A stretch of 64,000 bases of DNA, taken from the NCBI RefSeq assembly GCF_014230355.1, contig NZ_JACLAX010000001.1, positions 310,001-374,000 of the forward strand, written 5' to 3'. Below are positions 7,303 to 56,843 of the stretch, piece after piece (the stretch's first letter is position 1; each line of letters begins with the position of its first letter). A program made the translations under genes and the position numbers. The notes under the pieces were generated by a model. The model was not told the origin of the DNA. It made no database searches and was given only the letters and a program-made list of their open reading frames with translations. Origin of the DNA: Novosphingobium piscinae (lineage in GTDB: Bacteria; Pseudomonadota; Alphaproteobacteria; Sphingomonadales; Sphingomonadaceae).

Positions 7303-7342
7303 CGTTCGTTCAAGCCGATCGCGGCCAGGCGTTCAAGACAAG

Positions 7343-7351
7343 TATTGCTAT
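7343..7351 (+). promoter_or_regulatory. TATTGCTAT motif, second copy, upstream of TBDR
   Basis: This exact 9-base match to part of the 6230-6250 inverted repeat lies 61 bases upstream of the TBDR start at 7412, within the AT-rich stretch AAGTATTGCTATAGAAAATA. Two identical AT-rich 9-mers flanking one AraC-type gene are unlikely to be chance in this GC-rich sequence. It is a candidate activator half-site. Confidence 0.5.
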
Positions 7352-7411
7352 AGAAAATATCGTTCCTCCCAAGCAGGCGGCCCAGCCGCTGCCAAGGGGA
7401 GAGCAACGATC

Positions 7412-10045
7412 ATGAAGCAGCATCTGCTGGCCACCGCCGCGCTTGTCGCCACGCTGGCCGCCACCACCGCCCAGGCCCAATCCGCCCAGACCCAGTCGGC
7501 CGCGACCGAAACCGGCGGCGAGGACAGCCCGATTGGCGAGATCGTGGTCACCGCCCAGAAGCGTTCGGAGAACGTGCAGAACGTCCCCATCGCGATCAGC
7601 GCCTTCACCGCCACTTCGCTGCGCGAACGCTCGGTCACCTCGGTGTCGTCGCTGTCGGCACTGGCGCCCAACGTCAACCTCGATGGCGGCACGCCGTTCT
7701 CGGGTTCCTCGGCCGTGCTTTCGGCCACGATCCGCGGCATCGGCTCGGACGACTTCGCCTTCAACATCGACCCCGGCGTGGGCATCTATCTCGACGGCGT
7801 CTACCTGGCCCGGACCGTCGGCGCCAACCAGGACCTGCCCGACGTGGAGCGGGTCGAGGTGCTCAAGGGCCCGCAGGGTACGCTGTTCGGGCGCAACACC
7901 ATTGGCGGCGCGATCAGCATCGTCACCCATGATCCGGGCAAGGAGTTCAAGGGCAGCTTCGACGTCACCACCGGAAGCTACAATCTGGTCAAGGTGCGCG
8001 CGACGGTTGACGTGCCGCTGTCCGACAGCCTGTTCTCGTCGCTCACCGCGGCCAGTCTGAACCGGCAGGGCTTCCTCAAGCGGATCCCCTTCCCCGACCA
8101 GCGCGCCGGCAATTCCGATCCGTTCACCCGCTTCGCCAACGCCGGCTACGCCAGCGCCTCGCGCGAGAGCGGGGATGCCAGCGTCAGCCTGCGCGGCAAG
8201 CTCAAGTGGGACAATGGCGGGGCGGTCACCGCCACGCTCTCGGCCGACTATACCCACCAGGACAGCTCTGGGCAGGCGACCAAGCTGCTCGGCGTCTACC
8301 CCTCGATTCCGGGTCCGTTCGCCGGCACGGCCAACCTCCCCGGCACCGCCTTCGATCCGACCGCGAGCACCGGCTTCCTGTTCGCCGGGCTGTACAACTT
8401 CTGCATCGGCAGCACGCCGGCGCAGATCGCGGCGCGCAATGCCCAGGCGCTGTGCGGACCGCGCGGCACGCAGTTCAACCCGCGCTATCAGCTGCCCGGG
8501 CTGGCCAGTGTGAACGTCGACGCCAACCCGCTTAACGACCGCCTGCCATGGGATGGGCGCTTCCTGCTGTCCGATCCCGACCTCAGCTATGCCACCGGCC
8601 CGAGCTTCAACCAGCTGACCGCCTGGGGCCTGGGCGGGACCGTCCAGGCCGAGGTCAGCCCCGACCTGACCGTCAAGTCGATCACCGCCTACCGCAACAC
8701 CCGGTGGAAGGCCGGCGTCGATGCCGACGGCTCGCCGTTGTCGTTCCTCGAGCTGACCTTCACGCAGAACCAGTGGCAGTTCAGCCAGGAGCTGCAGCTG
8801 CTCGGCAAGGCCTTCGACAGCAAGCTCAACTACGTGCTGGGCGCCTATTACTTCAAGGAAAAGGGGAACCTGCACGACTACGTCAACTTTGCCGAAGGGC
8901 TGCTCCAGGTCGACGGACCCAACAGCTTCGACACCGAGAACTGGGCCGCCTTCGGCCAGATCGACTTCCGTCCCAGCGACCTGCTCGGCTTCACCGTGGG
9001 CGGGCGCTACACCCGCGAGCGCAAGCTGTTCATCGGTGGTCAGCAGGATCTGAACGGCGGCAACTACAAGCTGTTCGGCTGCGCCGCCGGCGATGGCACG
9101 ATCGCGCCCTTCGGCAACTTCCCGCTGGCCCCGCCGGTCGGCGCCGGCGGGCCGCCCTGCTTTGCCGCGCTGTCATTCCCCACGGCGGCCAATCCGGTGC
9201 AGATCTATGTCCCCGGCGAGAACCGCAAGACCTTCTCCGACTTCTCGCCGAAGGTCGGCATGCAGCTGCATCCGACGCGCGACGTGATGGTCTACGGCTC
9301 GTGGTCGCGCGGCTACAAGACCGGCGGCTGGACCACGCGCCTGACCAACCCGCAGGGCCAGGTCGCCCCCGATTTCAACGAGGAGCGGGCCAGCACCTTC
9401 GAGGCGGGGATCAAGTCGAGCCTGCTCGACCGGCATCTCCAGCTCAACCTGTCGGCCTTCACCACGGCCTATCAGGGCGTGCAGCTCAACATCCAGATCG
9501 GCACCTCGCCGACCATCGCCAATGCCGGCGACGCGCGGATCAAGGGCTTCGAGGTGGAGATGGTCGCCGCGCCGGTCCGCGGGCTGACGATCAACGCCGC
9601 GCTCGGCCATATCGACGCGCGCTACACCGCGCTGCAGCCCGCCGCGCTGGTCAACGCCAGCCCGATCCCGGGGATTCAGGCGGGGATCTTCGTCGGCGCG
9701 CCACTGCCCAAGACCGCGAACTGGAAGATCAACGTCTCGCCGCGCTACGAATACGGCCTGGGCAACGGCGGGTCGATCGTGCTGATCGGCGACTGGACCC
9801 ATACCACCGAGGTCTGGAACGATGTCGCCCGGGCCGTGCTGCTGCGCCGTCCGACCAATGACATCGTCAACGCCAGCATCGCCTACAACGCGCCCGACGA
9901 GCGCTGGTCGCTGACCGCCGGCGGGACCAACCTGACCGCCACGCGCTTCCTCACCAGCGGCAATCTCAACCTGGCGGACGGTGCGGCCTTCGGCACCTTC
10001 AACCGTCCGCGGGAATGGTACCTGCGGTTCGGGATGACCTTCTGA
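7412..10045 (+). CDS. TonB-dependent receptor, probable aromatic-compound transporter
   Basis: An 877-residue outer-membrane receptor. It has a signal peptide ending TTAQAQ near residue 24, the TonB-box-like GEIVVTAQKRSENVQNVP, a plug domain with TIRGIGSDDF and VERVEVLKGPQGTLFGRNT, and a ~700-residue barrel ending in the outer-membrane C-terminal phenylalanine (RFGMTF). The ATG at 7412 follows AAGGGGAGAG. The VVTAQKR...NVP group is the type most expanded in sphingomonads and is often placed with aromatic catabolic genes. Its stop overlaps the start of the alcohol dehydrogenase (TGATG), so the two are translationally coupled. This suggests that the dehydrogenase acts on what the receptor imports. 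The upstream TATTGCTAT motif suggests control by the AraC protein. Confidence 0.95.
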   Translation: MKQHLLATAALVATLAATTAQAQSAQTQSAATETGGEDSPIGEIVVTAQKRSENVQNVPIAISAFTATSLRERSVTSVSSLSALAPNVNLDGGTPFSGSSAVLSATIRGIGSDDFAFNIDPGVGIYLDGVYLARTVGANQDLPDVERVEVLKGPQGTLFGRNTIGGAISIVTHDPGKEFKGSFDVTTGSYNLVKVRATVDVPLSDSLFSSLTAASLNRQGFLKRIPFPDQRAGNSDPFTRFANAGYASASRESGDASVSLRGKLKWDNGGAVTATLSADYTHQDSSGQATKLLGVYPSIPGPFAGTANLPGTAFDPTASTGFLFAGLYNFCIGSTPAQIAARNAQALCGPRGTQFNPRYQLPGLASVNVDANPLNDRLPWDGRFLLSDPDLSYATGPSFNQLTAWGLGGTVQAEVSPDLTVKSITAYRNTRWKAGVDADGSPLSFLELTFTQNQWQFSQELQLLGKAFDSKLNYVLGAYYFKEKGNLHDYVNFAEGLLQVDGPNSFDTENWAAFGQIDFRPSDLLGFTVGGRYTRERKLFIGGQQDLNGGNYKLFGCAAGDGTIAPFGNFPLAPPVGAGGPPCFAALSFPTAANPVQIYVPGENRKTFSDFSPKVGMQLHPTRDVMVYGSWSRGYKTGGWTTRLTNPQGQVAPDFNEERASTFEAGIKSSLLDRHLQLNLSAFTTAYQGVQLNIQIGTSPTIANAGDARIKGFEVEMVAAPVRGLTINAALGHIDARYTALQPAALVNASPIPGIQAGIFVGAPLPKTANWKINVSPRYEYGLGNGGSIVLIGDWTHTTEVWNDVARAVLLRRPTNDIVNASIAYNAPDERWSLTAGGTNLTATRFLTSGNLNLADGAAFGTFNRPREWYLRFGMTF

Positions 10046-11138: not shown

Positions 11139-11213
11139 GTGGACCACCCGCTGCACCTGCTGATCGATGGCCGCCTCGTCGCGGGGGCCGGGCGGCTGCC
11201 CGGTCCGGCCTGA
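11139..11213 (+). pseudogene. Stump of an aldehyde dehydrogenase gene
   Basis: Three bases after the alcohol dehydrogenase stop, a GTG opens a frame reading VDHPLHLLIDGRLVAGAGRL then PGPA and stop. LLIDGRLVAGA is the typical N-terminus of NAD-dependent aldehyde dehydrogenases. After a one-base shift at about 11199 the DNA can be read on as VRPDPAGRPPGRFALAS, which resembles the following NPATG...AS segment, to about 11270. The rest of the ~1.4-kb gene is missing and an unrelated secreted-protein gene starts at 11309. I read this as a deletion remnant of an ADH-ALDH operon. The match is short, so confidence is moderate. Confidence 0.55.
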
Positions 11214-11308
11214 CCCCGCCGGGCGCCCGCCCGGCCGTTTCGCGCTTGCCAGCGGCGAGTGGCTGGGTCAGTCACCGGGGAACGGCCAGATCACGGAGCG
11301 GACCAAGG

Positions 11309-12097
11309 ATGACAGGCTTGAAACCGGGATACCGAGACCTGTGGCGCAGCGCAGCGTTCGGCCTTGCCCTCGCTGCGGCGCTGCCGGCCGGCGCCACGCC
11401 GACCCCGGTGCTGGTGCGCGTGATCAGCCAGGACGCCAAGTTCATCGGCGACCACACCGGCGGGGCGGCCGTGGTGCTGCGTGATGCGGAGAGTCAGGCC
11501 GTGCTGGCCGAGGGGCGGACGCGCGGCGGTACCGGCGACACCGGCCTGATCATGCAGGCCACGGGCCGCAGTCCGCGCCGCGCGACCCCCGACACGGCCG
11601 GCTTCTCGGCCGTGCTCGAGATCGACCGTCCCACCCTTGTCCGGCTCGAGGTCCAGGGGCCGCTTGACCGCCCGGGTTCGGCCGTGCGCATCACCGCCGA
11701 GCGCTGGATCATGCCGGGCGAGCCGGTCACCGCCGGCGACGGCTGGGTGGTCGAGCTGCCCGGGCTGGCGGTCACCCCCACGGTCAGCCTGACCGGCGGG
11801 ATGCTCGCGGTCTCGGCGCAGGTCGAGCCGCTGTGCGGCTGCCCGATCGCTCCGGGCGGACTGTGGCCGGCCGCGGACTACCGGGTCAGCGCCAGCCTGT
11901 GGGCCGGCAACCGCCGGCTCGCCGAGGTGCCGCTGGCCTTCACCACCGCGCCCGGCGGCTTCAGCGGCCAGGTTCCCCTGCCCCCGGGTCCGCCCGCGAC
12001 GCTGATGATCTTTGCCCGCAACCTCGTCACCGGGGCGAGCGGGCTGGGCCGGATCGCGGTGCCTGCCGCGGCGGCGGGAGCGCGCAGCGCCCCCTGA
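11309..12097 (+). CDS. Secreted protein of unknown function (262 aa)
   Basis: An exported protein with a basic N-terminus and hydrophobic core (AFGLALAAALPAGATP, cleavage near residue 30). The mature part looks all-beta: short strands, many Val/Thr/Gly, and a segment LCGCPIAPGGLWPAADYRVSA with a CxC pair. I recognise no catalytic domain. Sequences like this occur beside TBDR/aromatic clusters, where they may bind or shield a substrate in the periplasm, but that is inference. The ATG at 11309 gives a proper signal peptide; the frame is open to 11246. It converges on the DeoR gene with 12 bases between. Confidence 0.7.
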   Translation: MTGLKPGYRDLWRSAAFGLALAAALPAGATPTPVLVRVISQDAKFIGDHTGGAAVVLRDAESQAVLAEGRTRGGTGDTGLIMQATGRSPRRATPDTAGFSAVLEIDRPTLVRLEVQGPLDRPGSAVRITAERWIMPGEPVTAGDGWVVELPGLAVTPTVSLTGGMLAVSAQVEPLCGCPIAPGGLWPAADYRVSASLWAGNRRLAEVPLAFTTAPGGFSGQVPLPPGPPATLMIFARNLVTGASGLGRIAVPAAAAGARSAP

Positions 12098-12109
12098 TCG
12101 GCCGGCGCG

Positions 12110-12889
12110 TCAGCCCGCGGGCAGAGCCAGCACGACCTTGACCCCGGCCGCGGCCAGGATGTCCGCCAGCTCGGGAGGGACCGCATCGGTGACGAGCACG
12201 TCGATCCGCTCGAGCCCGCAGACGATCGTGCCCGACTGGGTGCGGAACTTGCTGCTGTCGACCAGCAGGATCACCTGCTCGGCCCGCTCGATCAGGCGGC
12301 GCTCGGCGGCCACCAGCACGACGTCGGCCTGCATGATCCCCTGCGGCCCGACCGCGGCGGCGCCCATGAACAGCTTGGGCGCGTGGAAGCGCGGCATCGA
12401 TTCCTCGCCCGCGGCGGCGAGGATGATGTTCTGCTCGCGGAACACCGAACCCGAGGGCACGAGCAGGCCGGTCCCCTCCTGCGGCAGCAGCGCCTCGACG
12501 ATGTGCAGCGAGTTGGTCAGGACCTGGCAGCGCAGTCCGGCCAGGTGCGGGCACATCTGCAGCGTGGTGGTGCCGCCGTCGATCATGATCCCCTCGCCCG
12601 GCTCGACCAGCGCGGCGGCGGCCTTGCCGATCGCCTGCTTGGCGGCGGTGTTGAGCTGGATCGACTGGCTGAACGGGGTGCCGACCAGCACCGGGCCGGG
12701 ATCGCTCCCCTCGGGGCGCTTGGCCCCGCCGTGGACGCGGACGATCCGACCCGCCTCCTCCAGCTTGGCCAGGTCGCGGCGGATCGTGGCCGGCGAGGCC
12801 TGCAGCAGCCGCTCGAGTTCGCGATAGGAGACGAAGCCGGTCGGCCCGAGGGCCTCGACGATCAGCCGTTCACGCTCGGCCGCGTGCAT
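12110..12889 (-). CDS. DeoR-family transcriptional regulator of the rhamnose island
   Basis: A 259-residue regulator. The N-terminal winged helix-turn-helix has FVSYRELERLLQASPATIRRDLAKLEEAGRI in the usual DeoR arrangement, followed by RVHGGA. The C-terminal DeoRC ligand domain has GIMIDGGTTTLQM and VLTNSLHIVEAL, which binds phosphorylated sugars. It is the last gene of a four-gene minus-strand operon with the transporter, lactate dehydrogenase and kinase. DeoR proteins of rhamnose loci typically respond to rhamnulose 1-phosphate or a related intermediate (family knowledge). Its likely targets are the divergent promoters between 16740 and 16872. Confidence 0.9.
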   Translation of the reverse strand: MHAAERERLIVEALGPTGFVSYRELERLLQASPATIRRDLAKLEEAGRIVRVHGGAKRPEGSDPGPVLVGTPFSQSIQLNTAAKQAIGKAAAALVEPGEGIMIDGGTTTLQMCPHLAGLRCQVLTNSLHIVEALLPQEGTGLLVPSGSVFREQNIILAAAGEESMPRFHAPKLFMGAAAVGPQGIMQADVVLVAAERRLIERAEQVILLVDSSKFRTQSGTIVCGLERIDVLVTDAVPPELADILAAAGVKVVLALPAG

Positions 12890-44822: not shown

Positions 44823-46985
44823 TCATTGCACCACCACGCGCACGCGATCGAGGTTCTGCAGCAGGGCATAGGGGGTGCCGTGGGCCACCGGGCGCTGCGC
44901 CGCGCCGCGCAGGGTGACGAACCAGGTGCCCGGCTGGGCGAAGGTGTGGCTGGCGGTGACGGTCACCGCCTTGCGCCCGCGACCGACCCGACCGGTGGTG
45001 GCGAAGCGCCCGGAACCGTCGAAGTCCCATTCGGCGGCGGTGATCGTGCCGCCTCCCGGGGCGGCGGTGATCGCGCCGACGAACTGCACCGGCTGCCCGG
45101 CCTTGACCACGGCCCGCTGGCCGCCGTTCACGGTCAGCCGCACCACCGGCTGGATCCCCTGACGCTGCGCCGCGGTCGGGGCGACGATGACCTGGCCGTC
45201 CTCCACCCGGTACTGCGTCGAGGGGGGTGGCGCCACACCGCGCTCGACCCAGGCCGACAGGTCGCGCAGCGCCTGCTGCAGCGGGCCGTTGTAACTGACC
45301 GTGCGGGTGCGATCCTCGATCCCCGGCTCGTCGCCGTGCTGGGCATAGTCGGTGTACCACAGGCGCACGTGCTGATCGGCCGTGGCGCCGAAGTGCTGCG
45401 CGATACGCTGGCGGTACCAGTCGGCCTGCCACGGCATGGCCTCGCGGTCCCACAGCGAGGACATCAGGATCATCTTGCCGGTGAACACCCCGGTCTGCAT
45501 CGGCCCGAAGCTGGCGCGCATGAAGGCCGGACCCATCAGGAAGGGACGCTGCGGATAGAGCGGCTTGCCGTCCGCCCCGCGGAACTGGTCCCAGACCTTG
45601 AAGTCGGCGCTCGGCACCTGGTGCCAATGGTAGGTTTCGAGCGCGAGGAAGTTCGAGTTGTCGAGCCGCACCTCGTCCCCTGCACTCAGCTTGGCCACGA
45701 CCGTGGGATCGGTCACCCCCAGCACGGCCATGTCGCCGATCACCCGGGCCACCGGGATCAGGCTGCCCTTGGCATTGCCGCCCAACACCGCCAGGTCCCC
45801 GCCCAGGAACTTCACCTTGGGCGGCATCGCGCTCAGCCGGACGGCGACGATGCGCCTGGCCTCCTCCTCGGCGCGCGCCTTGAACGCGGTGTCGACCCCG
45901 CCGCGCTCGCGGTTGCTGCTGGCATCGGTGTTCAGCCCGAGCCGGACCGCCTCCGCGCCGGTGATCAGCGCGCCGATCGTGCTGGTGAACTGTAGCCGGG
46001 CATCGGCGAACTGTTCCGGGTGATCGAAGCCGAGGTAGCCGGGCTTGGTCCAGAAGTCCGAGAAGTAGGCCGCATCGACCATCTTGATCGCCGGGTAGAG
46101 CGCGGCCAGCCCATGGATGCCCATGGTCTTCCACCCGAACCACGAGCGCATCGGGAAACCCATCCGGGTCACCTCGCGCAGCACCGCCGCCTCCGCCGGG
46201 GACAGCCCGGCATAGGGATCGCCGCTGCCGCCCGGCTCGATCGCGTCGACGATCTGCGGGAACTTGTCATCCAGGATGCGCATCGCGCGGATGCGGGCGG
46301 TGAACATGTTGGGGATGGCCACAGGAGATCCCGGCACATAGGGCACGGCGCCGTCCCAGACGCCCGGAGCGCTCTCGAACCCGACGATCGTGCGGAAGGC
46401 CCCGCCCGAGCCGCCGTAGAGATAGCCGTAGGGCCGCTGGCCCGCGTAGCGTCCCGAACGGTACATGGCGCGGGCAACGGTGCGCGAATAGAGCGCCGCC
46501 GCCGCATTGGCCTTGTAGGCCGTCAGCGAGGGATCGGGCTGGCGCACCGCCGAGCCATCGCCGAGGTTGACCGTCCCGCCGCCGTTGGTCTCGACGAAGT
46601 AGGCCCCGCTGGCGATCGCGAAGCCGATCTTGTTGAAGGCGCCGGGGGGCATGGTCTGACCCTCGTTCTCGCTCCCCGGAACCGGGGTCACGTGCTGGAA
46701 GAAGCGGCCCTGGTACTGCCCCGGCGGCGGAAAGTAGAACGAGAAGCGCGCATCGGTGCCCTTGAACCCGCCATGGACATAGCGATGCCGCACCGGCTGG
46801 TCGCGCCACTCGTCCTGGTCGATGTAGGGCTCGGCGAAGACCTTGTAGGCCGGGTCCGACAGGCGGACCTCGGCGCTGGACGCGGCGCTTGCGCCGGTCC
46901 CGGTCGGCACCGCGTCGCCAAGCGCAGGGGCAGCGAGGCCGGCCAGCAGCAGGGCGGCGAGCGGGCGGTAGAGCTTGGCGTTCAT
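44823..46985 (-). CDS. Secreted alpha/beta-hydrolase-like protein with PKD-like domain
   Basis: A 720-residue exported protein. The ATG at 46985 follows AGGATGCCATC; the signal peptide ends near APALGDAV. The first ~400 residues look like an alpha/beta-hydrolase: an N-terminal strand-rich region, GAYFVETNGGGTVNLG, and a nucleophile elbow GYLYGGSGGAFRT (GGSGG). A later part holds WYTDYAQHGDE, where the catalytic histidine could be. The C-terminal ~110 residues contain ITAAEWDFDGSGRF and SHTFAQPGTWFVTLRG, a PKD/Ig-like domain. I recognise the family only as secreted hydrolases of unknown substrate in sphingomonads. It forms an operon with the amber-broken SnoaL-like gene and is divergent from a MAPEG gene across a strong hairpin. 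Confidence 0.78.
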   Translation of the reverse strand: MNAKLYRPLAALLLAGLAAPALGDAVPTGTGASAASSAEVRLSDPAYKVFAEPYIDQDEWRDQPVRHRYVHGGFKGTDARFSFYFPPPGQYQGRFFQHVTPVPGSENEGQTMPPGAFNKIGFAIASGAYFVETNGGGTVNLGDGSAVRQPDPSLTAYKANAAAALYSRTVARAMYRSGRYAGQRPYGYLYGGSGGAFRTIVGFESAPGVWDGAVPYVPGSPVAIPNMFTARIRAMRILDDKFPQIVDAIEPGGSGDPYAGLSPAEAAVLREVTRMGFPMRSWFGWKTMGIHGLAALYPAIKMVDAAYFSDFWTKPGYLGFDHPEQFADARLQFTSTIGALITGAEAVRLGLNTDASSNRERGGVDTAFKARAEEEARRIVAVRLSAMPPKVKFLGGDLAVLGGNAKGSLIPVARVIGDMAVLGVTDPTVVAKLSAGDEVRLDNSNFLALETYHWHQVPSADFKVWDQFRGADGKPLYPQRPFLMGPAFMRASFGPMQTGVFTGKMILMSSLWDREAMPWQADWYRQRIAQHFGATADQHVRLWYTDYAQHGDEPGIEDRTRTVSYNGPLQQALRDLSAWVERGVAPPPSTQYRVEDGQVIVAPTAAQRQGIQPVVRLTVNGGQRAVVKAGQPVQFVGAITAAPGGGTITAAEWDFDGSGRFATTGRVGRGRKAVTVTASHTFAQPGTWFVTLRGAAQRPVAHGTPYALLQNLDRVRVVVQ

Positions 46986-48668: not shown

Positions 48669-49169
48669 TCAGGCGGCGGGATCTTCCTGCATTTGCAGGA
48701 GCATGGTGGCGAACAGCTCGACCTGGTCGCGGCTGAATGCGGCCAGCCGGGTCTGCACGAGATCCGTCACGCGCGTGCGGAACTCCGCGGTAACCTTGCT
48801 CCCTAGCGGGGTGAGCCGCAACAGCGAGCGCCGGCGATCGTCGCCGGTCTGCGCCGCGATCAGCCCGGCATCGGTCAGCCTGACGAGTTCGGCGGTAACC
48901 AGGCTGCGGCCAATGCGCAGCACCAGGGCCAGATCCTTGGGGTATTCGATGCCCTTGTCGATCAGGCTCAGGATGAAGGCCCCGCGCGGCCCCAGGCTGT
49001 AGCGTTCGGTCACCGCGCTGCCCGCGGCATTGATCGGGCGCTGCGCGAAGACCAGCCCGGTCACGATGCGCGAAAGCAGCGCCTGGTCCAGCGCCTCTGG
49101 CGCGGGCTTCGCATTGTCCGCGCGGCGCAGCAGGTGCTCCAGCAACTGGTCGCGGCGATCTTGGGGCAT
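48669..49169 (-). CDS. MarR-family transcriptional regulator
   Basis: A 166-residue winged-helix regulator. The core includes FILSLIDKGIEYPKDLALVL then RIGRSLVTAELVRLTDAGLI, the recognition helix, and the wing GDDRRRSLLRLTPLG. The ATG at 49169 is chosen because the frame upstream to 49304 is Arg/Pro-rich and unlike a protein. It converges on the SDR gene and may control the MAPEG-SDR unit or the exported operon behind it; no ligand can be told. Confidence 0.9.
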   Translation of the reverse strand: MPQDRRDQLLEHLLRRADNAKPAPEALDQALLSRIVTGLVFAQRPINAAGSAVTERYSLGPRGAFILSLIDKGIEYPKDLALVLRIGRSLVTAELVRLTDAGLIAAQTGDDRRRSLLRLTPLGSKVTAEFRTRVTDLVQTRLAAFSRDQVELFATMLLQMQEDPAA

Positions 49170-49320
49170 GCGGCTGGGATCCCGGATCGGTTGAGCGCGC
49201 TCCCCTACCAAGCCTGCCGGCGGCCGCAAGCCGAAGTTGGCCCGGCCGGCACCGGCCGTTATCGGACAAGCCCGCAGGCACCGCCCTGCTGGCCTTGCGC
49301 GCAAAGCCCTCGATCGCGGT

Positions 49321-49371: not shown

Positions 49372-50712
49372 TCATGCCAGGATCTCGCCGATCGACTTGC
49401 TGGTGGCCATGCTCTGGGTGCCCCAGCTATCGACCGACACGCCCATGGCCTGCTGCAGGGTCAGCCCGACGCGGCTCACCGGCGTGCCCATGCCGTCGAC
49501 ATAGAGCCCGGTCCTGACCCGCCCGCCGGCGCTGCCGGCGGTCATCATCGGGATATTGTCGATCGTGTGGAACTTGGCGAACTCGGTTTCGGAGTGGGCG
49601 AAGACCAGCGTGTTGTCGAGCAGCGTGCGCGGCCCCTCCTGGATCCGGTCGAGCGCGCTGACGAAGTAGACCCAGGCCTCGAAGATCCGGCTGAGGAAGT
49701 AGCTCGCCTCGGGCTGGTAGCCGAGGCGGTTGTCGAGCGCCTCCTCGTGGGTCAGCTGGTGGTGGGTGATCGTGCTGCCGATCCGGGTCAGCGACGAGGC
49801 CCCGTTGTTGAACATCATGTTGAACACCCGGGTCTGGTCGCAGGCCAGCGCCATGACGAGGAGATCGGTCATCAGTGCATGGTTGACCACCACGTTCTCG
49901 ATCTCGGCATTGACCGGCCGTTCCTTGACCGGGGGCAGGACCCGGCAGGCCTGCAGCGGTTCGGGTCTGGTCAGCTCGACCTCGAGCTGGTTCTCGAGCT
50001 GGCGCACCGAGGTGAAGTACTGGTCCAGCTTCTCGCGGTCCGCGGCGCCGACCGCACGTTCGAGGGCGCGGCGCTGCTCGCCCACCGCCGACAGCACGCT
50101 GCGCCGCGCCATGACCACCGGATCGGGCACGAAATCGGCGCTGTTCGGGTCCTTGAAACCGATCCCGAACAGCCGCTGGTACAAGGCGCTGGCCGAGGTC
50201 TCGGACGGGTTGAGATTGCCGCCGCCGCGCCCGCTGAGCGAATTGCGGGCATCTCCCGCCGCCGACATCTCGAGGCTGCGGAAGCGCGTGCGGGTACCGA
50301 TCCGGTCGCCGATCGTGACGTCGAAGCTCTCGCCGGGCAGGCCGCGCTCGGCGGTGAGCGCCCGGCCCGTCCGGATCGCCGCCCCACCCGAGGTGTGCGG
50401 GAGATTGGGAGCTCCATCCAGCATCACGTTGAAATTGCCGAGGATATTGATCTTATGCGCGAAGGGCCGGATCGGCTCGAGCTCGGGCTTGAGATCATAA
50501 CCGGGCCCGGGCTTGTCGGGGAACCAGCGGGTGGGATTGACTCCCAGCCCCCAGAACCAGGTTCCGAAGCGCACCGGAACCGGACTGCCGGTGGCGGCCA
50601 TGGCCTCGCCGTTCCCGTCGAGAAAGGCGTCGAGCAGCGGCACCCCGACAGTGACGGCAGCGCCGTGGAGCAGGCCGCGCAGGGCCGAGCGGCGGGTCAG
50701 ATCGATAGCCAT
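49372..50712 (-). CDS. DUF1552 family exported protein
   Basis: A 446-residue protein with a twin-arginine-type start (LTRRSALRGLLHGAAVTVGVP), so it is probably exported folded. The body matches DUF1552: FGTWFWGLGVNPTRWFPDKP, LPHTSGGAAIRTGRAL, NVVVNHALMTDLLVMALACD and LLDNTLVFAHSETEFAKFHT, with HSE and other His/Asp positions typical of the alkaline-phosphatase-like DUF1501/1552 group. The function is not established. The ATG follows GGAGGACGCCCC. It is the last gene of a five-gene exported operon, directly after the DUF1592-type protein. That pair is inherited together in Planctomycetes, Myxobacteria and some sphingomonads (family knowledge). Confidence 0.9.
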   Translation of the reverse strand: MAIDLTRRSALRGLLHGAAVTVGVPLLDAFLDGNGEAMAATGSPVPVRFGTWFWGLGVNPTRWFPDKPGPGYDLKPELEPIRPFAHKINILGNFNVMLDGAPNLPHTSGGAAIRTGRALTAERGLPGESFDVTIGDRIGTRTRFRSLEMSAAGDARNSLSGRGGGNLNPSETSASALYQRLFGIGFKDPNSADFVPDPVVMARRSVLSAVGEQRRALERAVGAADREKLDQYFTSVRQLENQLEVELTRPEPLQACRVLPPVKERPVNAEIENVVVNHALMTDLLVMALACDQTRVFNMMFNNGASSLTRIGSTITHHQLTHEEALDNRLGYQPEASYFLSRIFEAWVYFVSALDRIQEGPRTLLDNTLVFAHSETEFAKFHTIDNIPMMTAGSAGGRVRTGLYVDGMGTPVSRVGLTLQQAMGVSVDSWGTQSMATSKSIGEILA

Positions 50713-50730
50713 GGGGCGTCCTCCGTGACG

Positions 50731-52416
50731 TTACCGGCGCCGGCTGCGCGTGGCCGTCCCGGACAGGGGCGCGGCATCGACGGCATAGGCTTCGGGCATG
50801 GTGACCACATCCAGAAACAGCTGGCGGATGCGGTGGTTGCGGGCGGCAAAACGGTCGGTCAGAGCATCGACCCGGGCGGAGTCGTCAACCGGCTTGCCGG
50901 TCGCATACTCCAGCGCGCGCGAGGCCACGCAGGTGGCGGTGTCGCGGCTTTCGGCCAGGGCCTGGCCAAGCCCGGCCGCGCCTTCGAACAGCTTGCCATC
51001 GATGCTGCCCGAGACATCGATCGGCGCGTCGTTCTCCCGCGTGCGCCGGGCGCCGATGCCGTCGAAGCGTTCGAGCGTCAGTCCGATCGGATCGGTGATC
51101 GCGTGGCAGCCGGCGCAGACCGGATCGGTATTGTGGGCGTCAAGCCGGATGCGCGCGGTCGGCATCGCCCGGTTGGCGATGTCCTGGACCGCGGTGAAAT
51201 TCACGTTGCCAGGGGGATTTGGCACCGGCTGGCACATCAGCAATTCGCGCACCGCCCGGCCGCGCAGCGTGGGCGAGCTCCGCCCCGAGTGCGAATACAT
51301 CGCCAGGAACCCGGCCTGGCCCAGCAGGCCGGCCCGGTCGCTGCCTTCGGGAAACTCATAGCGCACCCAGCCCTGCGACCGGGAGACCGGAACCTGGTAG
51401 AGCGCCGCCAAGGGCCGGTTCATCCAGGTCTGCCGGGTGGTGAACAGCTCGCGGTAGTCACCGTCCCGGGTCAGCAGGTGATCGGTGATCGTGAGCAACA
51501 TCTGTTCGGGCAGGGCCTGGGCGACCGCCGGATTGAAATAGGGAAAGACCAGCGGATCCTTGGCCAGCTCGTCGAACCGCTCGAACAGCAGCATGTCCGC
51601 GAAAAAGGCGCGGATGCCGCTGGCGAAGCGCGGCGAGGCGACCATCTGCCCGGCCATCGCCCGCAGCCGCGCCGGATCGGTCAGTTCGCCCGCCGCGGCG
51701 GCATCGAGCAGGGCGGCATGGGGCGTCGTGTTCCACAGGGTGAAGCTGAGCCGGGCCGCGCGCGAAGGGTTGTCCAGACGGAACCTGCCGGGCGCCGCAG
51801 GGTCGGGCTCGGCCCGCTCGATCACGTAGAGGAAATGCGGCGAAACCAGCATCGCGGCGAGCGCCAGCTCCAGCCCGCGGTCGACCGAGCCGCCGGCCGT
51901 GGCCGCGCGATCGGCCAGGTCGGCATAGAACGCGCCCTCGTCCGGGCTCAGCGGCCGCCGGAACAGGAGCCGGCCCAGCCGGTCCAGCGTCGGCCGCAGG
52001 CAAGCGCGGTCGGGTGTGGCACCGCTGCCCCCGGGACAGACCACGAACTGGTCACGGTGCGCCGGATCGAACACCTGCGCCGCAATCTGCCGGGCCATGG
52101 CGTCGAACTGCTCGAGCCCGGCCGGCGAGATGCTGGCCGCGCGCGCGCCGCTGGCGATCAGCTCGTGGGCAGGCCGGACAATCGGCTCGAACCGTCCGGC
52201 CACCCGGATGTCGGTGCCGAAGATATCGGCGATGGTGTTGCGGTACTGGGCTTCGGTGAGCCGCCGCATGCCGACGATGCGCCAGTCGGGACCGGCCGGC
52301 GCGATGGCGCGCTGCGCGGCCGGCGCCGCATCGAGCGGCTTGGCCGCCCACACGGTGCCAAGGGCCGCGGCGCAGGCCAGGCCGAGCGCAAGGGTGGGGT
52401 GACGCAGCTTGATCAT
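50731..52416 (-). CDS. DUF1587/1595/1592/1588/1585 multi-domain exported protein
   Basis: A 561-residue protein with a signal peptide (LALGLACAAALGTVWA). All five domains of the planctomycete-type array are readable in order: DUF1587 (RRLTEAQYRNTIADIFGTDI), DUF1595 (LGRLLFRRPLSPDEGAFYA), DUF1592 (AMLVSPHFLYVIERAE), DUF1588 (GRAVRELLMCQPVPNPPG and CAGCHAITDPIGLTLERFDG) and DUF1585 (TATCVASRALEYATGKPV). The CAGCH is a possible c-type heme site. The N-terminal PSCyt1 cytochrome domain present in planctomycete versions is missing. The ATG overlaps the stop of the upstream gene (ATGA). Its role is unknown; with the cytochrome c' partner it could be part of a periplasmic oxidation chain. Confidence 0.92.
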   Translation of the reverse strand: MIKLRHPTLALGLACAAALGTVWAAKPLDAAPAAQRAIAPAGPDWRIVGMRRLTEAQYRNTIADIFGTDIRVAGRFEPIVRPAHELIASGARAASISPAGLEQFDAMARQIAAQVFDPAHRDQFVVCPGGSGATPDRACLRPTLDRLGRLLFRRPLSPDEGAFYADLADRAATAGGSVDRGLELALAAMLVSPHFLYVIERAEPDPAAPGRFRLDNPSRAARLSFTLWNTTPHAALLDAAAAGELTDPARLRAMAGQMVASPRFASGIRAFFADMLLFERFDELAKDPLVFPYFNPAVAQALPEQMLLTITDHLLTRDGDYRELFTTRQTWMNRPLAALYQVPVSRSQGWVRYEFPEGSDRAGLLGQAGFLAMYSHSGRSSPTLRGRAVRELLMCQPVPNPPGNVNFTAVQDIANRAMPTARIRLDAHNTDPVCAGCHAITDPIGLTLERFDGIGARRTRENDAPIDVSGSIDGKLFEGAAGLGQALAESRDTATCVASRALEYATGKPVDDSARVDALTDRFAARNHRIRQLFLDVVTMPEAYAVDAAPLSGTATRSRRR

Positions 52417-53597
52417 CGCGCGCTGGCTCCGGTCGCGGCGGGAAGGTCGTTGACGAAGGCGGGGATCGCCACCACGCGCATGGCGCTCGACACCGCGGTG
52501 CACTTCCCGGTCTTCCGGTCGCGCACGCCATCGGCATAGTGGAGCAGCGTGGCCAGCATGCCGGCGCAGTCGATACCGGCCGTGGTCGCCGCGCCGACCC
52601 CGCCGATTGCCGGACTCTGGATGACCTCGAAGGCCGGCCGATAACCGCCCAGCAGCCCTTCGAGGCGGCCGTCCGGACGGAACACCAGCCGCAGCCGGCC
52701 CTGGTTGAAGGTATAGCGCGACCGCGAACCGCGCAGGTCGCGTGCGCCACCCTGGCCCCAGGTCTGGGCAAGGACGATGGTGGTCGGCTCCGTGGTGAGC
52801 ACGCCCTTGTTGATGCGGCCTTTGAGCACGTTGCGGTGGCGCGGGCCGCTGTTGCTGACGGTGAAGCTGGCGCCCGGCAGGAAGCGCCCCTTGGCGTCAG
52901 CCGGCGGACGGTCGGCTGTGTTGGCGTAGATCACCTCGACGTCGTCGTCGCGGTCGAAGCTGTCGATCCCGCGCAGCAGCAGCACCTGGGTCCATTCGCC
53001 GGAGGCATGGAACTGCCGTAGTCCGCTGGCGATATCGCCGGCGATCCCGTCCTTGCCGCGCCACTCCAGGGTGCAGCCCATCACCCGGTATTCCTGGTTG
53101 TCGATGCCGGTTTCGCCAGCGGGCGAGGTGAATTCGCCGTGCTCGCAGCTCTCGCCGCCGGCCCCGCGATCGAGGTCGAGCCCCTGGGCCGTGGGGCTCT
53201 GGACCGTGCGCAGCAGCGGCCGCCGAAACCGGTCGGGCTGCGAACAGATGTTGGTGTTGCCCGGCCCCACGGCGGTCGCCTGCCACCGCCGGGTGAACTC
53301 GGGCTCGTTCTCCTTGAGCGCCAGCCGCGCCCGCTCCGCCTCGGGCAGGGACGCGAGGTAGGCCTCCTTGAGCTTGGGCACGGTGCCGTCGGGGCAGGCC
53401 TCCTTGCCCTGCACCACCGGCGGGGCGAACTCCTCGACCACGAACCCCAGCTCGCCATTGGCCGGCGGGGGTGGCAGCTCCGGGCTGCTCTGGGCGATCA
53501 CGGTGCCCGGTTCGCCGGGGGTGACCGCAGCAAATCCGGCGGCCAGCCCGGCCAGGCCGGTCAAGAGGGTCAGGGTGGTGGTCTTGAGGCTGGTCAC
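52413..53597 (-). CDS. Exported protein of unknown function (394 aa)
   Basis: An exported protein (signal LTLLTGLAGLAAGFA) of 394 residues. Cysteine-containing segments KEACPDGTVPKLKEAYL, NTNICSQPDRFRRP, GESCEHGEFTSPAGE and RVMGCTLEWRGKDG suggest two or more disulfides. The second half is strand-rich (VEVIYANTADRPP, RHRNVLKGRINKGVLTTEPT, RSRYTFNQGRLRLVFRPDGR). No known domain recognised. It seems specific to this type of DUF1592/DUF1552 operon. The GTG at 53597 has GGAG 8 bases upstream; its stop overlaps the DUF1592-type start (ATGA), so synthesis is coupled. Confidence 0.75.
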   Translation of the reverse strand: MTSLKTTTLTLLTGLAGLAAGFAAVTPGEPGTVIAQSSPELPPPPANGELGFVVEEFAPPVVQGKEACPDGTVPKLKEAYLASLPEAERARLALKENEPEFTRRWQATAVGPGNTNICSQPDRFRRPLLRTVQSPTAQGLDLDRGAGGESCEHGEFTSPAGETGIDNQEYRVMGCTLEWRGKDGIAGDIASGLRQFHASGEWTQVLLLRGIDSFDRDDDVEVIYANTADRPPADAKGRFLPGASFTVSNSGPRHRNVLKGRINKGVLTTEPTTIVLAQTWGQGGARDLRGSRSRYTFNQGRLRLVFRPDGRLEGLLGGYRPAFEVIQSPAIGGVGAATTAGIDCAGMLATLLHYADGVRDRKTGKCTAVSSAMRVVAIPAFVNDLPAATGASAR

Positions 53598-53609
53598 TGC
53601 GGGACTCCG

Positions 53610-54419
53610 TCAGGGTTGCAGCGGGTGGGCGCCCGCCGGCAGCGACGCGGGATCAGCGTGGTCCGCGACGAACACCGGCTGGTTGCGGTGGGCCCATTGC
53701 GCCGTGTCGCCAGAGCGCTCGACCGACCACTCGCCCACCCCGGCGCTGGCCAGCGGGGCGGGGAACGGGGCCCAGCGGCACGGCGCGGTGCACGGGCCGG
53801 TGAACAGCAGCCGCCCGTCGGTGTCGGTCAGCCGGTAGGCCCCGGCGATGAACCGGGTGGCAACACTGGGCGGTACGGTCAGGCGGGGCCGCGGCGGGAT
53901 GTATTTCAGCGTGTTCCAGGTCCGGTCGTCAGCGCCATCGTGAACGGTCGAACGGCTGTCCGCGCCGCGGCGGACATAGACCATGTGCCAGCCCTTATAG
54001 ACCCACTGCGGACCATCCGGGCCGGCGATGATCGTCCAGTCGGGCGCGGCCTGGGGCAGAACATATCCCGGCGCCGTGCGGGGCAGGCCGTCGGCGGGGA
54101 AGCGGATGTTGGGCACGCTGCCCTTGGGCGCGCGCAGCGGCTCCCATGTCTTGCGGCAATCACGAGTGCAGTACTGCGCAGCGTCGGGAGACCAGCGCAG
54201 GACCGTGCGCATGTCCATCCCGTAGAGCACCCGCCCGGCACGATCGGTGTAGACCGCCTGTCCCTCGCCGGTCCGCACGACGACATCCGCCGGGAGCGGC
54301 GAGCCATCCGCGGGAGGGAGCGGAAAATCGGCCGGCTGGGCGGCCGCGCCGGCCGGCATCACGGCGCCAGCGCCGAGCAGGACGGCCAGCAGGTGCAGGG
54401 GTCGGACGCGGCGGATCAT
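53610..54419 (-). CDS. Exported secreted-repeat (lipoprotein-15-like) protein
   Basis: A 269-residue exported protein (signal LHLLAVLLGAGAVMPAGA). It contains the secreted-repeat pattern of PF03640 twice: DRAGRVLYGMDM with CTRDCRKTWEPLRAP, and LTDTDGRLLFTGPC with CRWAPFPAP. The conserved Cys-x3-Cys...W.P parts suggest metal or heme binding or disulfides. Proteins with this repeat occur beside cytochromes. It lies 2 bases after the cytochrome c'-like stop and 12 bases before the 394-aa gene. Confidence 0.82.
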   Translation of the reverse strand: MIRRVRPLHLLAVLLGAGAVMPAGAAAQPADFPLPPADGSPLPADVVVRTGEGQAVYTDRAGRVLYGMDMRTVLRWSPDAAQYCTRDCRKTWEPLRAPKGSVPNIRFPADGLPRTAPGYVLPQAAPDWTIIAGPDGPQWVYKGWHMVYVRRGADSRSTVHDGADDRTWNTLKYIPPRPRLTVPPSVATRFIAGAYRLTDTDGRLLFTGPCTAPCRWAPFPAPLASAGVGEWSVERSGDTAQWAHRNQPVFVADHADPASLPAGAHPLQP

Positions 54420-54421
54420 GG

Positions 54422-54877
54422 TCAGTCCGTCCGCGTGCGGAAGCTGTCGTGGCAGCCCTTGCAGGTCTCGCCGAGCTTGCGGGCCGCGCCGCGCATGGTC
54501 TCGGCATTGCCGCTGCCAACGGCCTGCTGGAACCCGGCGGCCGCAGCGGCAAAGGCATCCTGGGCGGCCTTGAAGCGGGCCGGCTGCCGCCAGATCTCGG
54601 CCTTCGCCTTGGTCTTGCGCCCGGGCGCCGGGCCCGATCCGGCAGGGAACAGCCCGTACTGGGCCTGCGCGACAGTGCGCATGTGGCGCGCCGCCTGGGC
54701 GAGCAGGACCGGCTGGACCTCGTCGGTGCGCAGGCCATCATTGACCGCCTTGAACGAGGCGCCGAGCTCCCGGTAGGTATCGATCCGTGACGCGATCGGA
54801 TCCGGCGCGGCTGCGACCAATGGTGCCGCGAGCATGGCGGCGGTCAACGCGGCCACCCCGCAATGTCTGCGTGCCAT
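54422..54877 (-). CDS. Cytochrome c'-like protein
   Basis: A 151-residue exported heme protein. The signal peptide ends near APLVAAA, and the mature part is a four-helix bundle with the heme motif C139-K-G-C-H143 close to the C-terminus, the standard position in cytochrome c'/c556. The ATG follows GAGAGGACC. Such proteins transfer electrons or bind nitric oxide in the periplasm. It is the first gene of the exported operon with the secreted-repeat, unknown, DUF1592-type and DUF1552 proteins. An inverted repeat 39 bases upstream may control the operon. Confidence 0.9.
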   Translation of the reverse strand: MARRHCGVAALTAAMLAAPLVAAAPDPIASRIDTYRELGASFKAVNDGLRTDEVQPVLLAQAARHMRTVAQAQYGLFPAGSGPAPGRKTKAKAEIWRQPARFKAAQDAFAAAAAGFQQAVGSGNAETMRGAARKLGETCKGCHDSFRTRTD

Positions 54878-54986: not shown

Positions 54987-55766
54987 CTAGACCGCAGCCA
55001 CCGTCACATAGAGCCCCACCGCGATCACGACCGCAGCGAAACCCCGCTCGAGCAGAGCCTTGCGGCGGCTGAGCACCTGTCCCAGCGCGATCCCCGCCCC
55101 GGTGCCGAACAGCCCACCGACGACCATCAGGCTGGTCACCGGCCAATTGACCAGACCCGAGGCGGCATAGGAGGCCGCGGTAGTCAGACCCAGCGCGCTG
55201 ACCACCACCAGCGAGGTGCCGATCGCGTTGGACAGGGGCATAGCCGTGGCCAGGATCAATCCGGGCACGATCAGGAACCCGCCCCCGATCCCGAAAAAAC
55301 CCGCCGCGAGGCCGACGAGCAGCCCGAGCGGGAGGAGCCGGGGCAGCAGGGTTGCGGCACTGTCGCGGGTCAGGCGCACATCGGGTGCGTCCGCCTTGCG
55401 GCGCGGATGCAGCAGCGACAGGCCCACGCCGATCATCAGCAGCCCGAACAGGGCCAGCAGGCGCGTGCCATCGACCGCCTTGCCGAGCTCCGCGCCGAGT
55501 GCCGCGCCGAGTGTGCCCGAGAGCGCGAACACACCGGCACAGCGCCATTTGACCCGCCCTGCCCGGGCGTGGCCGACCAGACTGGCCAGGGCATTGAGGG
55601 TCACCGCAACGGCCGCGGTGCCGATCGCGGCATGCGGCGATCCCACCCCGACGCCATAGACCAGCAGCGGCACGGCGAGGATCGATCCGCCCCCACCGAC
55701 CAGTCCCAGCACCAACCCGATCAGGGCCCCGGATGCCAGCGCGGCGAGCATGGTGGCGAGGGCCAT
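54987..55766 (-). CDS. TauE/SafE-family sulfite/sulfur-compound permease
   Basis: A ~259-residue inner-membrane protein with about eight helices. The two TauE repeats are visible as GLVLGLVGGGGSILAVPLLV and GLAAGFFGIGGGFLIVPGLI. The family exports sulfite or related sulfur anions. I chose the ATG at 55766 just before the first helix; an in-frame ATG at 55823 would add 19 basic residues. It is divergent from a persulfide-dioxygenase-like gene across a BigR-like operator, matching the known BigR regulon (permease plus Blh) for hydrogen-sulfide detoxification. Confidence 0.9.
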   Translation of the reverse strand: MALATMLAALASGALIGLVLGLVGGGGSILAVPLLVYGVGVGSPHAAIGTAAVAVTLNALASLVGHARAGRVKWRCAGVFALSGTLGAALGAELGKAVDGTRLLALFGLLMIGVGLSLLHPRRKADAPDVRLTRDSAATLLPRLLPLGLLVGLAAGFFGIGGGFLIVPGLILATAMPLSNAIGTSLVVVSALGLTTAASYAASGLVNWPVTSLMVVGGLFGTGAGIALGQVLSRRKALLERGFAAVVIAVGLYVTVAAV

Positions 55767-55903
55767 CACGGTCTGGGCCTTACCGCTCCGGTCCCGGGGC
55801 AGGATCCGCAGCAGCCGCGCCATCCCGCACCCGCCCGGCCTTGGTCGCGAAGGTTGTGAGGTGCATCGGCGAATTCAGCATGGGCCCACTCCGTTGGCAC
55901 TTG

Positions 55904-55952: not shown

Positions 55953-56843
55953 ATGCCGCTGACGACAATCACACCACCCTTCATCGAAGCCTTCTTCGAC
56001 GAGGCCACCAATACCGTCAGCTATCTGGTCGGCGATCCGGACACACGCACCGCGGCGGTGATCGATCCCGTGCTCGATTTCGACATGGCGAGCGGCGTGG
56101 TCGACACCCGTTCGGCGGACCGCATCCTGGCCTTCGCCCGCGACCAAGACTGGCACGTCGCCATGGTGCTGGAAACCCACGCGCATGCCGACCATCTTTC
56201 GGCCGGCGCGATCATCAAGGCGCGGACCGGCGCCTGGATCGGCATCGGGCGGCACATCCGCGATGCGCAACGCGTCTTCGGGCCGGCCTTCGCCATGACC
56301 GACCTGAAAATGGACGGGTCTGATTTCGACCGCCTGTTCGACGAGGGCGATGCCATTCCCCTGGGGTCGCTAACGATCGGGGTGATGCACCTGCCCGGGC
56401 ACACTTCGGCCGATGTCGCCTACCGGATCGGCGACGCCGTGTTCGTCGGCGACACGCTGTTCATGCCCGACTACGGCACCGCCCGCACCGACTTTCCGGG
56501 CGGCGATGCCCGCACGCTCTATCGCTCGATCCGCCGGCTGCTGGCCCTGCCGGACGAGACGCGGTTGTTCCTGTGCCATGACTACAAGGCGCCGGGACGG
56601 GAGGACTACCGCTGGGAGACCACGGTGGGCGAACAGCGCCGCACGAACATCCATGTGAACGACAGCGTCGACGAGGCCGCCTTCGTGGCTCTGCGCGAAG
56701 GCCGCGACGCGGCGCTGCCGGCACCCAGGCTGCTGCTGCCGTCGATCCAGGTCAACATCCGCGCCGGCCGCTTCGGCGCAGCCGAGCCCAATGGCGTGAG
56801 CTACCTGCGCATCCCGGTGAAATGGCGATCAGCGGGCGCCTAG
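55953..56843 (+). CDS. blh: Metallo-beta-lactamase-fold persulfide dioxygenase-like protein (Blh/ETHE1 type)
   Basis: A 296-residue cytoplasmic enzyme. The metal motif H76-A-H78-A-D80-H81 is followed by a histidine in [12 protein letters not shown], an aspartate in [20 protein letters not shown] and a histidine in [11 protein letters not shown]. The sequence [19 protein letters not shown] is characteristic of persulfide dioxygenases (ETHE1/Blh), which use one iron to oxidise glutathione persulfide to sulfite. No rhodanese domain is fused. With the divergent TauE-type permease it gives a plausible route: persulfide oxidised to sulfite, sulfite exported. Its stop overlaps the stop of the convergent autotransporter gene in CTAG. 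Confidence 0.92.

Follow-up and report, generated by a model that had tools for sequence, protein, structure and literature searches.

A conserved triad of predicted exported proteins combining PSCyt3/PSD and HXXSHH (DUF1552) domains with an unnamed family in Novosphingobium piscinae and other Alphaproteobacteria

DUF1592, DUF1588, and DUF1552 proteins have been described from Planctomycetes and Verrucomicrobia and, in the excerpts available to us, carry no assigned function. In Verrucomicrobia, PSCyt3 genes usually adjoin a family of genes without known function, according to the relevant excerpt (PMC5615132). Excerpts of two further papers list DUF1587/1588/1592/1595 among the domains to be added in an anaerobic Pseudomonas design (PMC7789669) and report, from a lignocellulose community, a DUF1592 protein that bears CBM2 and was matched to Cellvibrio (PMC6004670); neither settles the function. 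The X132 domain of Cbp2D from Cellvibrio japonicus combines DUF1587 with a CxxCH motif (PMC8981238); its CxxCH also appears in PMC10916295, whose legend prints DUF1687, and in the accessible parts of both papers X132 has no characterised homologue. For growth on insoluble cellulose, Cbp2D plays an important part, as stated in the excerpt of PMC12542752. Our literature searches found no paper naming DUF1592 together with DUF1552 and none for 'HXXSHH', and a search centred on Novosphingobium also found nothing. Here, we analyzed 64,000 nucleotides of Novosphingobium piscinae (contig NZ_JACLAX010000001.1, positions 310,001 to 374,000; this whole stretch is hereafter the window), in which five adjacent genes, designated A to E, include members of these families. 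Other loci and genomes are cited by the L- and G-numbers with which they were labelled in this analysis.

The five genes all lie on the minus strand in the order A-B-C-D-E, from window position 54877 to 49372, with intergenic gaps of 2 (A-B), 12 (B-C), and 18 bases (D-E) and an ATGA overlap between C and D. Gene A (54422..54877) encodes a cytochrome c' of 151 amino acids (aa) with a CKGCH motif (PF01322, 8.6e-25), and the accessory gene B (53610..54419) a 269-aa putative secreted-repeat protein resembling Lipoprotein_15, with homologues matching PF03640. The three core genes follow. C (52413..53597) encodes a 394-aa predicted exported protein of an unnamed family; D (50731..52416) a 561-aa protein with the Pfam domains PSD3-PSD5-PSD4-PSCyt3-PSD2 (DUF1587/1595/1592/1588/1585); and E (49372..50712) a 446-aa HXXSHH/DUF1552 protein with a twin-arginine start (PF07586, 9.5e-53). 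NCBIfam names none of A to E above its cut-offs. All five products have a hydrophobic N-terminal stretch, with a best 12-residue hydropathy mean of 1.87–2.51, and export is predicted here from this hydropathy and the twin arginine of E, not by a signal-peptide program. An earlier annotation made from the sequence alone (the original prediction) had described a tightly coupled same-strand group with gaps of 2–18 bases and an ATGA overlap, a cytochrome c'-like A, the five-domain D with CAGCH, a Tat-exported (twin-arginine translocation) DUF1552 protein, CxxCH motifs in two products, and an export signal on each. The coordinates, Pfam matches, and motifs agree with all of these points, with the export signals resting on hydropathy.

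The conserved unit is the C-D-E triad, and A and B are optional. D and E stand beside C at 35 of the 36 loci where enough flank is visible. Among 199 Sphingomonadaceae genomes, C occurs in seven, as eight copies that all adjoin D and E; PF07586 was found in 12 of these genomes at E ≤ 0.001 (11 over the cut-off) and PSCyt3 in 11. Four other genomes of the family with D and E (G031, G046, G144, and G164) have a long form of D and no C. D and E follow C at all ten genome-contig loci that reach far enough, the other two of the 12 being cut by contig ends. A search of 385 alphaproteobacterial genomes retrieved C from six, five of them outside the Sphingomonadaceae, which gave 11 further loci. D and E are on the same strand as C in all 11, and the order is C-D-E except at L145, where E and C are separated by a cupredoxin gene and a second small gene. 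Six of seven plasmid loci also contain C-D-E. The exception is the TomTYG65 plasmid, which has a D-E-cytochrome c'-cytochrome b561 locus without C and its sole C match 200 kb away (L166 10193-11443; L165 22875-25882); the displaced C adjoins a glycoside hydrolase (GH) family 39 gene, with GMC oxidoreductase genes nearby. TomTYG65 rules out that C never occurs without D-E. The original prediction had named a lack of co-occurrence elsewhere as grounds for refutation, and the genomes compared here did not refute it on this count.

The three core proteins have also diverged in step. Pairwise distances at 32 loci correlate at 0.907 (C-D), 0.936 (C-E), and 0.914 (D-E), and the best of 999 permutations per pair reached 0.373, although these loci are related and the permutations overstate their independence. 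In the D tree, with L004 left out, all 32 C-linked D proteins are separated with a support of 1.000 from nine long or multi-domain D proteins. A contiguous A-B-C-D-E arrangement was found at L002, L003, L004, L006, L010, L013, L051, L052, and L162; because the order recurs in other genomes, the five-gene arrangement is not due to chance. B is present at all 12 genome-contig loci, one of these copies being cut; A occupies a different position in L007 and L009, and none was found in L005. Since many loci with a complete C-D-E lack A or B, the original view of five genes occurring together as a unit was correct for C-D-E and not for A and B.

Each of the five domains of D scores over its Pfam cut-off, in the order PSD3 (37.6 bits against 23), PSD5 (63.7 against 34.2), PSD4 (97.9 against 23.3), PSCyt3 (92.4 against 27), and PSD2 (47.1 against 25.8). 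The CAGCH motif is located within PSCyt3 at residues 434–438. An alignment of 21 D proteins was examined, from which L004 was dropped for a frame break and which does not count L135-L145; the CxxCH and H428 are invariant in all 21. The L004 D region (11169-12866) matches D in two reading frames of a draft genome, possibly because of a sequencing error. All 17 C-linked proteins aligned have a single CxxCH, and all four long D proteins have two, the second being N-terminal. Since Pfam finds no N-terminal PSCyt1 in the window D and the second CxxCH is confined to the four long proteins, D is classified from its sequence as a short variant of the PSCyt3/PSD proteins, not as the long form. PSCyt1 barely exceeds the cut-off in long form L053 (23.8 against 22 bits), the only one of the four long D proteins scanned; long form L157 has the second CxxCH and no PSCyt1 at E ≤ 0.001. 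From the conserved motif, we infer that D binds heme c at CAGCH.

E matches PF07586 with 180.2 bits, against a gathering threshold of 30. All 21 E proteins compared, at identities as low as 25%, share R7-R8, H106, H318, H322, H382, D366, and S374 without exception. The literal HxxSHH motif is not found in the window E, which reads HQLTHE at 318-323; the first and fifth positions of the motif are histidines in all 21 proteins, and the long forms read HxxSHH. By its score, E is a divergent subfamily of HXXSHH (PF07586), and its invariant residues could fit a Tat-exported metal protein. Profile comparisons of E gave probabilities of 3.6–12.5% with DUF1501 and 0.4–8.3% with sulfatases, which are not significant. 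DUF1501 and sulfatases are related families; as a yardstick, their profiles gave 48.7%, and unrelated pairs gave 0.1–1.0%. The profile of all E proteins meets DUF1501 and sulfatase in the same C-terminal stretch, and short-form E alone meets DUF1501 N-terminally.

The PSCyt3/PSD2-5 and HXXSHH pairs of planctomycetes and verrucomicrobia are the nearest counterparts, containing the same Pfam domains as D and E, and the long forms L053-L056 show the same adjacency. Compared with those pairs, the window D lacks PSCyt1, E belongs to a divergent subfamily, and the unnamed C stands ahead of D. Classified by domain content, C-D-E is a form of these known but functionally uncharacterised PSCyt3 and DUF1552 pairs with a new family, C. 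DUF1501 and DUF1800 are likewise a pair of neighbouring genes in Sphingomonadaceae and adjoin each other at L059-L098; they were found in 16 and 15 of 39 genomes, respectively, and the window's genome has neither gene. The profile similarity of E and D to this pair is not significant: D scores 14.4 bits against the DUF1800 Pfam model (cut-off 26.1), and comparison with the DUF1800 profile gave 55.7% over about 70 C-terminal positions for short D and 0.4% for long D.

No Pfam or NCBIfam match at E ≤ 0.1 was obtained for C. With about 8,000 candidates scored in each search, at least 419 homologues were retrieved with the window protein, at least 430 with a profile, and at least 182 with a distant relative, the three sets overlapping; where names are given, they are of the 'hypothetical protein' type. 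By sequence, C represents a new family whose members number in the hundreds, and it is a marker of the module, in keeping with the original description of a protein without known domains that is tied to D and E. That description had also called C cysteine-rich, which does not hold, as only 6 of its 394 residues are cysteines. Across 71 members, C118 and C344 are fully conserved, and C68 and C175 almost fully, which suggests two disulfides. The structure model (predicted local distance difference test score, pLDDT, 84.8) shows a barrel-like sheet with helical insertions, for which a fold comparison, with calycin/avidin-like barrels among the candidates, returned no significant match. C is present in two tandem copies ahead of D and E at L005 (9524-11826). 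In Sphingobium herbicidovorans, the annotation splits the C region (L161 10539-11884) into two overlapping hypothetical genes, and the profile match spans one stretch of this region.

The cytochrome c' assignment of A is clear (88.5 bits against 26.5), its CKGCH lies at the C-terminal residues 139-143, and a CxxCH is present in all 13 aligned A proteins. Cytochrome c' followed by b561 adjoins several C-D-E copies. The same two genes are also found beside three of the four long D proteins, all of which have the second CxxCH; A, a PF01322 protein, was therefore rejected as a moved PSCyt1 or a substitute for it, and the earlier proposal that the planctomycete cytochrome domain is here supplied by a separate gene falls with it. 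A is a putative accessory electron carrier. Pairs of cytochrome c' and b561 resemble the locus in that A belongs to PF01322 and b561 stands beside several module copies. They differ in that the 64-kb window has no b561; contig C43 of the window's genome carries two PF01292 genes, one of which (b561) adjoins a second cytochrome c' (L057 1387-2601). The secreted-repeat assignment of B is tentative and comes from its relatives: B itself has no Pfam match and its close relatives match PF03640 below the cut-off, and three more distant homologues beside other copies match it at 3e-39 to 5e-63 (133–209 bits).

PF07586 was found in 8 of 398 genomes of the phylum. Six regions of this kind, searched by profile, contain D and E in five cases and neither in L158, and no C was found by profile in these six regions from outside the window's class; their genomes are probably Gammaproteobacteria. 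Four D proteins from these regions are 1590–2368 residues long. D is fused to CBM26, GSDH, and cytochrome c in L153 and L155, to the Sde0182_C (cellulose-binding protein) domain in L156, and to Ig domains in L154. A Pseudoalteromonas plasmid protein matched by D is annotated as a 'starch-binding protein'. With PF07626 at residues 51-116 (37.6 bits) and CAGCH, D fits the description of X132 and is X132-like by its shared DUF1587 and CxxCH, X132 being represented here by published descriptions alone. In the excerpts consulted, X132 of Cbp2D and of Teredinibacter TERTU_2913/TERTU_3803 shares with D the CxxCH and, for Cbp2D, DUF1587. Unlike Cbp2D, D stands alone and contains no carbohydrate-binding or X183 modules, and its partners C and E are separate proteins. 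The original statement that homologous pairs have no established function needs qualifying by the importance of Cbp2D on cellulose, although X132 itself has no known activity in these sources.

The neighbourhoods of 34 C loci contain genes for TonB receptors (11 loci), Rieske oxygenases (7), GH3 (5), and luciferase-like oxygenases (4), and more rarely GH78 (3), sulfotransferases (3), flavin-containing monooxygenase (FMO)-like proteins (3), GH106 (2), major facilitator superfamily (MFS) transporters (2), protein K described below (2), and a sulfatase (1). None of these families was found at four long-form loci or five loci of other classes; this contrast is weak, as the seeds were drawn from the C loci and the window, the loci vary in length, and two of the 34 were sampled at 50 kb. 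A large-protein cluster is common to L051, L054, L055, L143, and L145. A single substrate for all loci was rejected because the neighbours vary. L010, the nearest relative (84% identity in C), has K, an MFS transporter, GH78, and GH3 ahead of A-B-C-D-E. A KshA-type oxygenase gene follows E in L137 and a homologue follows E in L139; other KshA-type oxygenases lie 5–9 kb from the module in two Sphingobium islands. The window's own flanks contain no glycosidase or Rieske gene matching the neighbour seeds. A glyoxalase/VOC protein gene follows E in many relatives (L004, L010, L013, and L049) and is missing in the window. Genomes G520 and G441, from one alphaproteobacterial genus, each have four C-D-E loci (L135-L142) with differing neighbours, a pattern that looks like multiplication of the module to serve several substrates.

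Thirteen plasmid records contain a C match, 12 from Sphingobium, and E and GH106 rhamnosidase (limit 1e-60) match the very same 12 Sphingobium records. In a cbb3 oxidase control restricted to plasmids, 23 Sphingobium records including these 12 were matched, which leaves 11 with neither C nor GH106 on that plasmid. GH106 matches without C occur in two further records, from Sphingomonas parapaucimobilis and a plasmid of Novosphingobium sp. P6W; in P6W, a C homologue is located on a larger contig. Saponin-degradation islands have been described in Sphingobium (Nakayasu et al., 2023, PMC10653915). From the listed coordinates, GH106 lies 14–17 kb from the module on all 12 plasmids, with the distance taken from D for TomTYG65. 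The gene order GH3-GH106-(hydrolase)-GH78 of TomTYG64 and S. herbicidovorans equals the locus-tag order SpGH3-1/106-1/78-1 of the characterised saponin hydrolases, a correspondence based on tag order. Eleven of the 12 plasmids carry Tom strain names, given to alpha-tomatine-degrading isolates. The accessible text reports that all isolates degraded tomatine, that S. herbicidovorans MH did so with putative intermediates accumulating, and that a saponin GH39 exists; within that text, searches for cytochrome, DUF, and hypothetical protein returned nothing, and C, D, and E are not discussed (PMC10653915). E is ≥99% identical in 8 of the 12 plasmids, so few independent plasmid events are represented.

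Two other genes in the window may be connected with the module. A MarR-like gene downstream of E (48669..49262, minus strand), with matches below the Pfam cut-off and far below the NCBIfam cut-offs, is likely a regulator; a homologue lies near the triad at 6 of 12 genome-contig loci. K (44823..46982, minus strand) encodes a 719-aa PKD-containing protein (PF00801, 6.3e-7) with a hydrophobic start, in which no further Pfam domain exceeds its cut-off. K homologues are located near the triad at differing positions in N. aerophilum (L010) and on the RL4 plasmid (L162), and K is a possible partner. On the other side, a 296-aa ORF at 55953-56843 (plus strand) has by eye a metallo-beta-lactamase-fold look and adjoins a TauE/SafE exporter gene at 54987-55823 (minus strand; TauE by Pfam). 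A TonB-receptor-like frame at 6788-10042 is about 40 kb from the module.

We read C-D-E, with a probability of roughly 45%, as a co-inherited, predicted-exported, heme-dependent electron-transfer enzyme for an externally acquired compound, with plant glycosides or similar substances as its putative substrate. D would carry heme c at CAGCH and accept electrons from the substrate. E would likely be the catalytic subunit and, being Tat-exported, is probably folded with a metal. C would be a barrel-shaped partner holding the substrate or the complex together. Electrons would then pass to cytochrome c' (A), to cytochrome b561, and to quinone or an oxidase, and in the window's genome b561 would need to come from another contig. 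Judging from the neighbours, the substrates may include plant glycosides, steroid- or terpenoid-like aglycones, and other lipophilic plant compounds, varying by locus. Flow from an external substrate through the D heme to cytochrome c' is the most likely mechanism, with direction, catalytic subunit, and substrate all putative. In the same sense, the periplasmic redox system of the original prediction is plausible for this exported, co-inherited set. A bolder version, in which C-D-E would found a new class of exported heme oxidoreductases, with C binding the substrate and E catalyzing the extracytoplasmic oxidation of plant glycosides or steroid/terpenoid aglycones, a soluble three-gene form of Cbp2D-type polysaccharide chemistry, seems to us rather doubtful.

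Electrons could also run the opposite way, from quinol through b561 and cytochrome c' to D and on to an oxygen-activating partner, either E or a secreted oxygenase, along the lines proposed for Cbp2D and the lytic polysaccharide monooxygenases (LPMOs). b561 enzymes are commonly quinol-linked. D has the DUF1587 and CxxCH of X132, and another Cbp2D domain, the cytochrome X183, reduces LPMOs according to the excerpts. However, a Pfam scan of selected neighbours, a part of all neighbours, revealed no copper monooxygenase, and the dehydrogenase-type GSDH domain fused to D in L153 and L155 fits sugar oxidation, a point tempered by one related domain pair in Teredinibacter that lacks such activity in the excerpt of PMC10916295. 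On this evidence, reverse flow is rather unlikely. It is improbable that E instead acts as a metal hydrolase of the alkaline-phosphatase/sulfatase type that frees a group, with D as a structural or maturation partner and heme secondary. The invariant histidines, aspartate, and serine of E (H106, H318, H322, H382, D366, and S374 in 21 of 21), the shared C-terminal stretch in which the all-E profile meets DUF1501 and sulfatase, and the similar DUF1501-DUF1800 pair in related genera would suit such an enzyme, but the profile probabilities are low, short-form E meets DUF1501 N-terminally, and the CxxCH of D is invariant.

A protective system is conceivable as well, in which cytochrome c' and the D heme would bind nitric oxide (NO) or peroxide when cells encounter toxic plant compounds. 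NO binding is common among cytochromes c', and resistance-nodulation-division (RND) efflux genes are located nearby in Sphingobium; many copies, however, lack cytochrome c' and retain C-D-E, and the identified neighbours are mostly catabolic, which makes protection very improbable as the role of the module. That exported genes were assorted here by chance without any joint function is scarcely credible given the 35/36 linkage and the matched divergence of C, D, and E.

The comparison with X132 ties the DUF1592/DUF1588/DUF1552 domains to Cbp2D; the parts of the literature examined here do not draw this connection. If the bolder version of a new oxidoreductase class is true, it would provide the first function for the DUF1592 and DUF1552 families. 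The triad is compact and occurs in culturable sphingomonads beside saponin glycosidases, whose substrates are partly known, so that its function can be tested by gene deletion.

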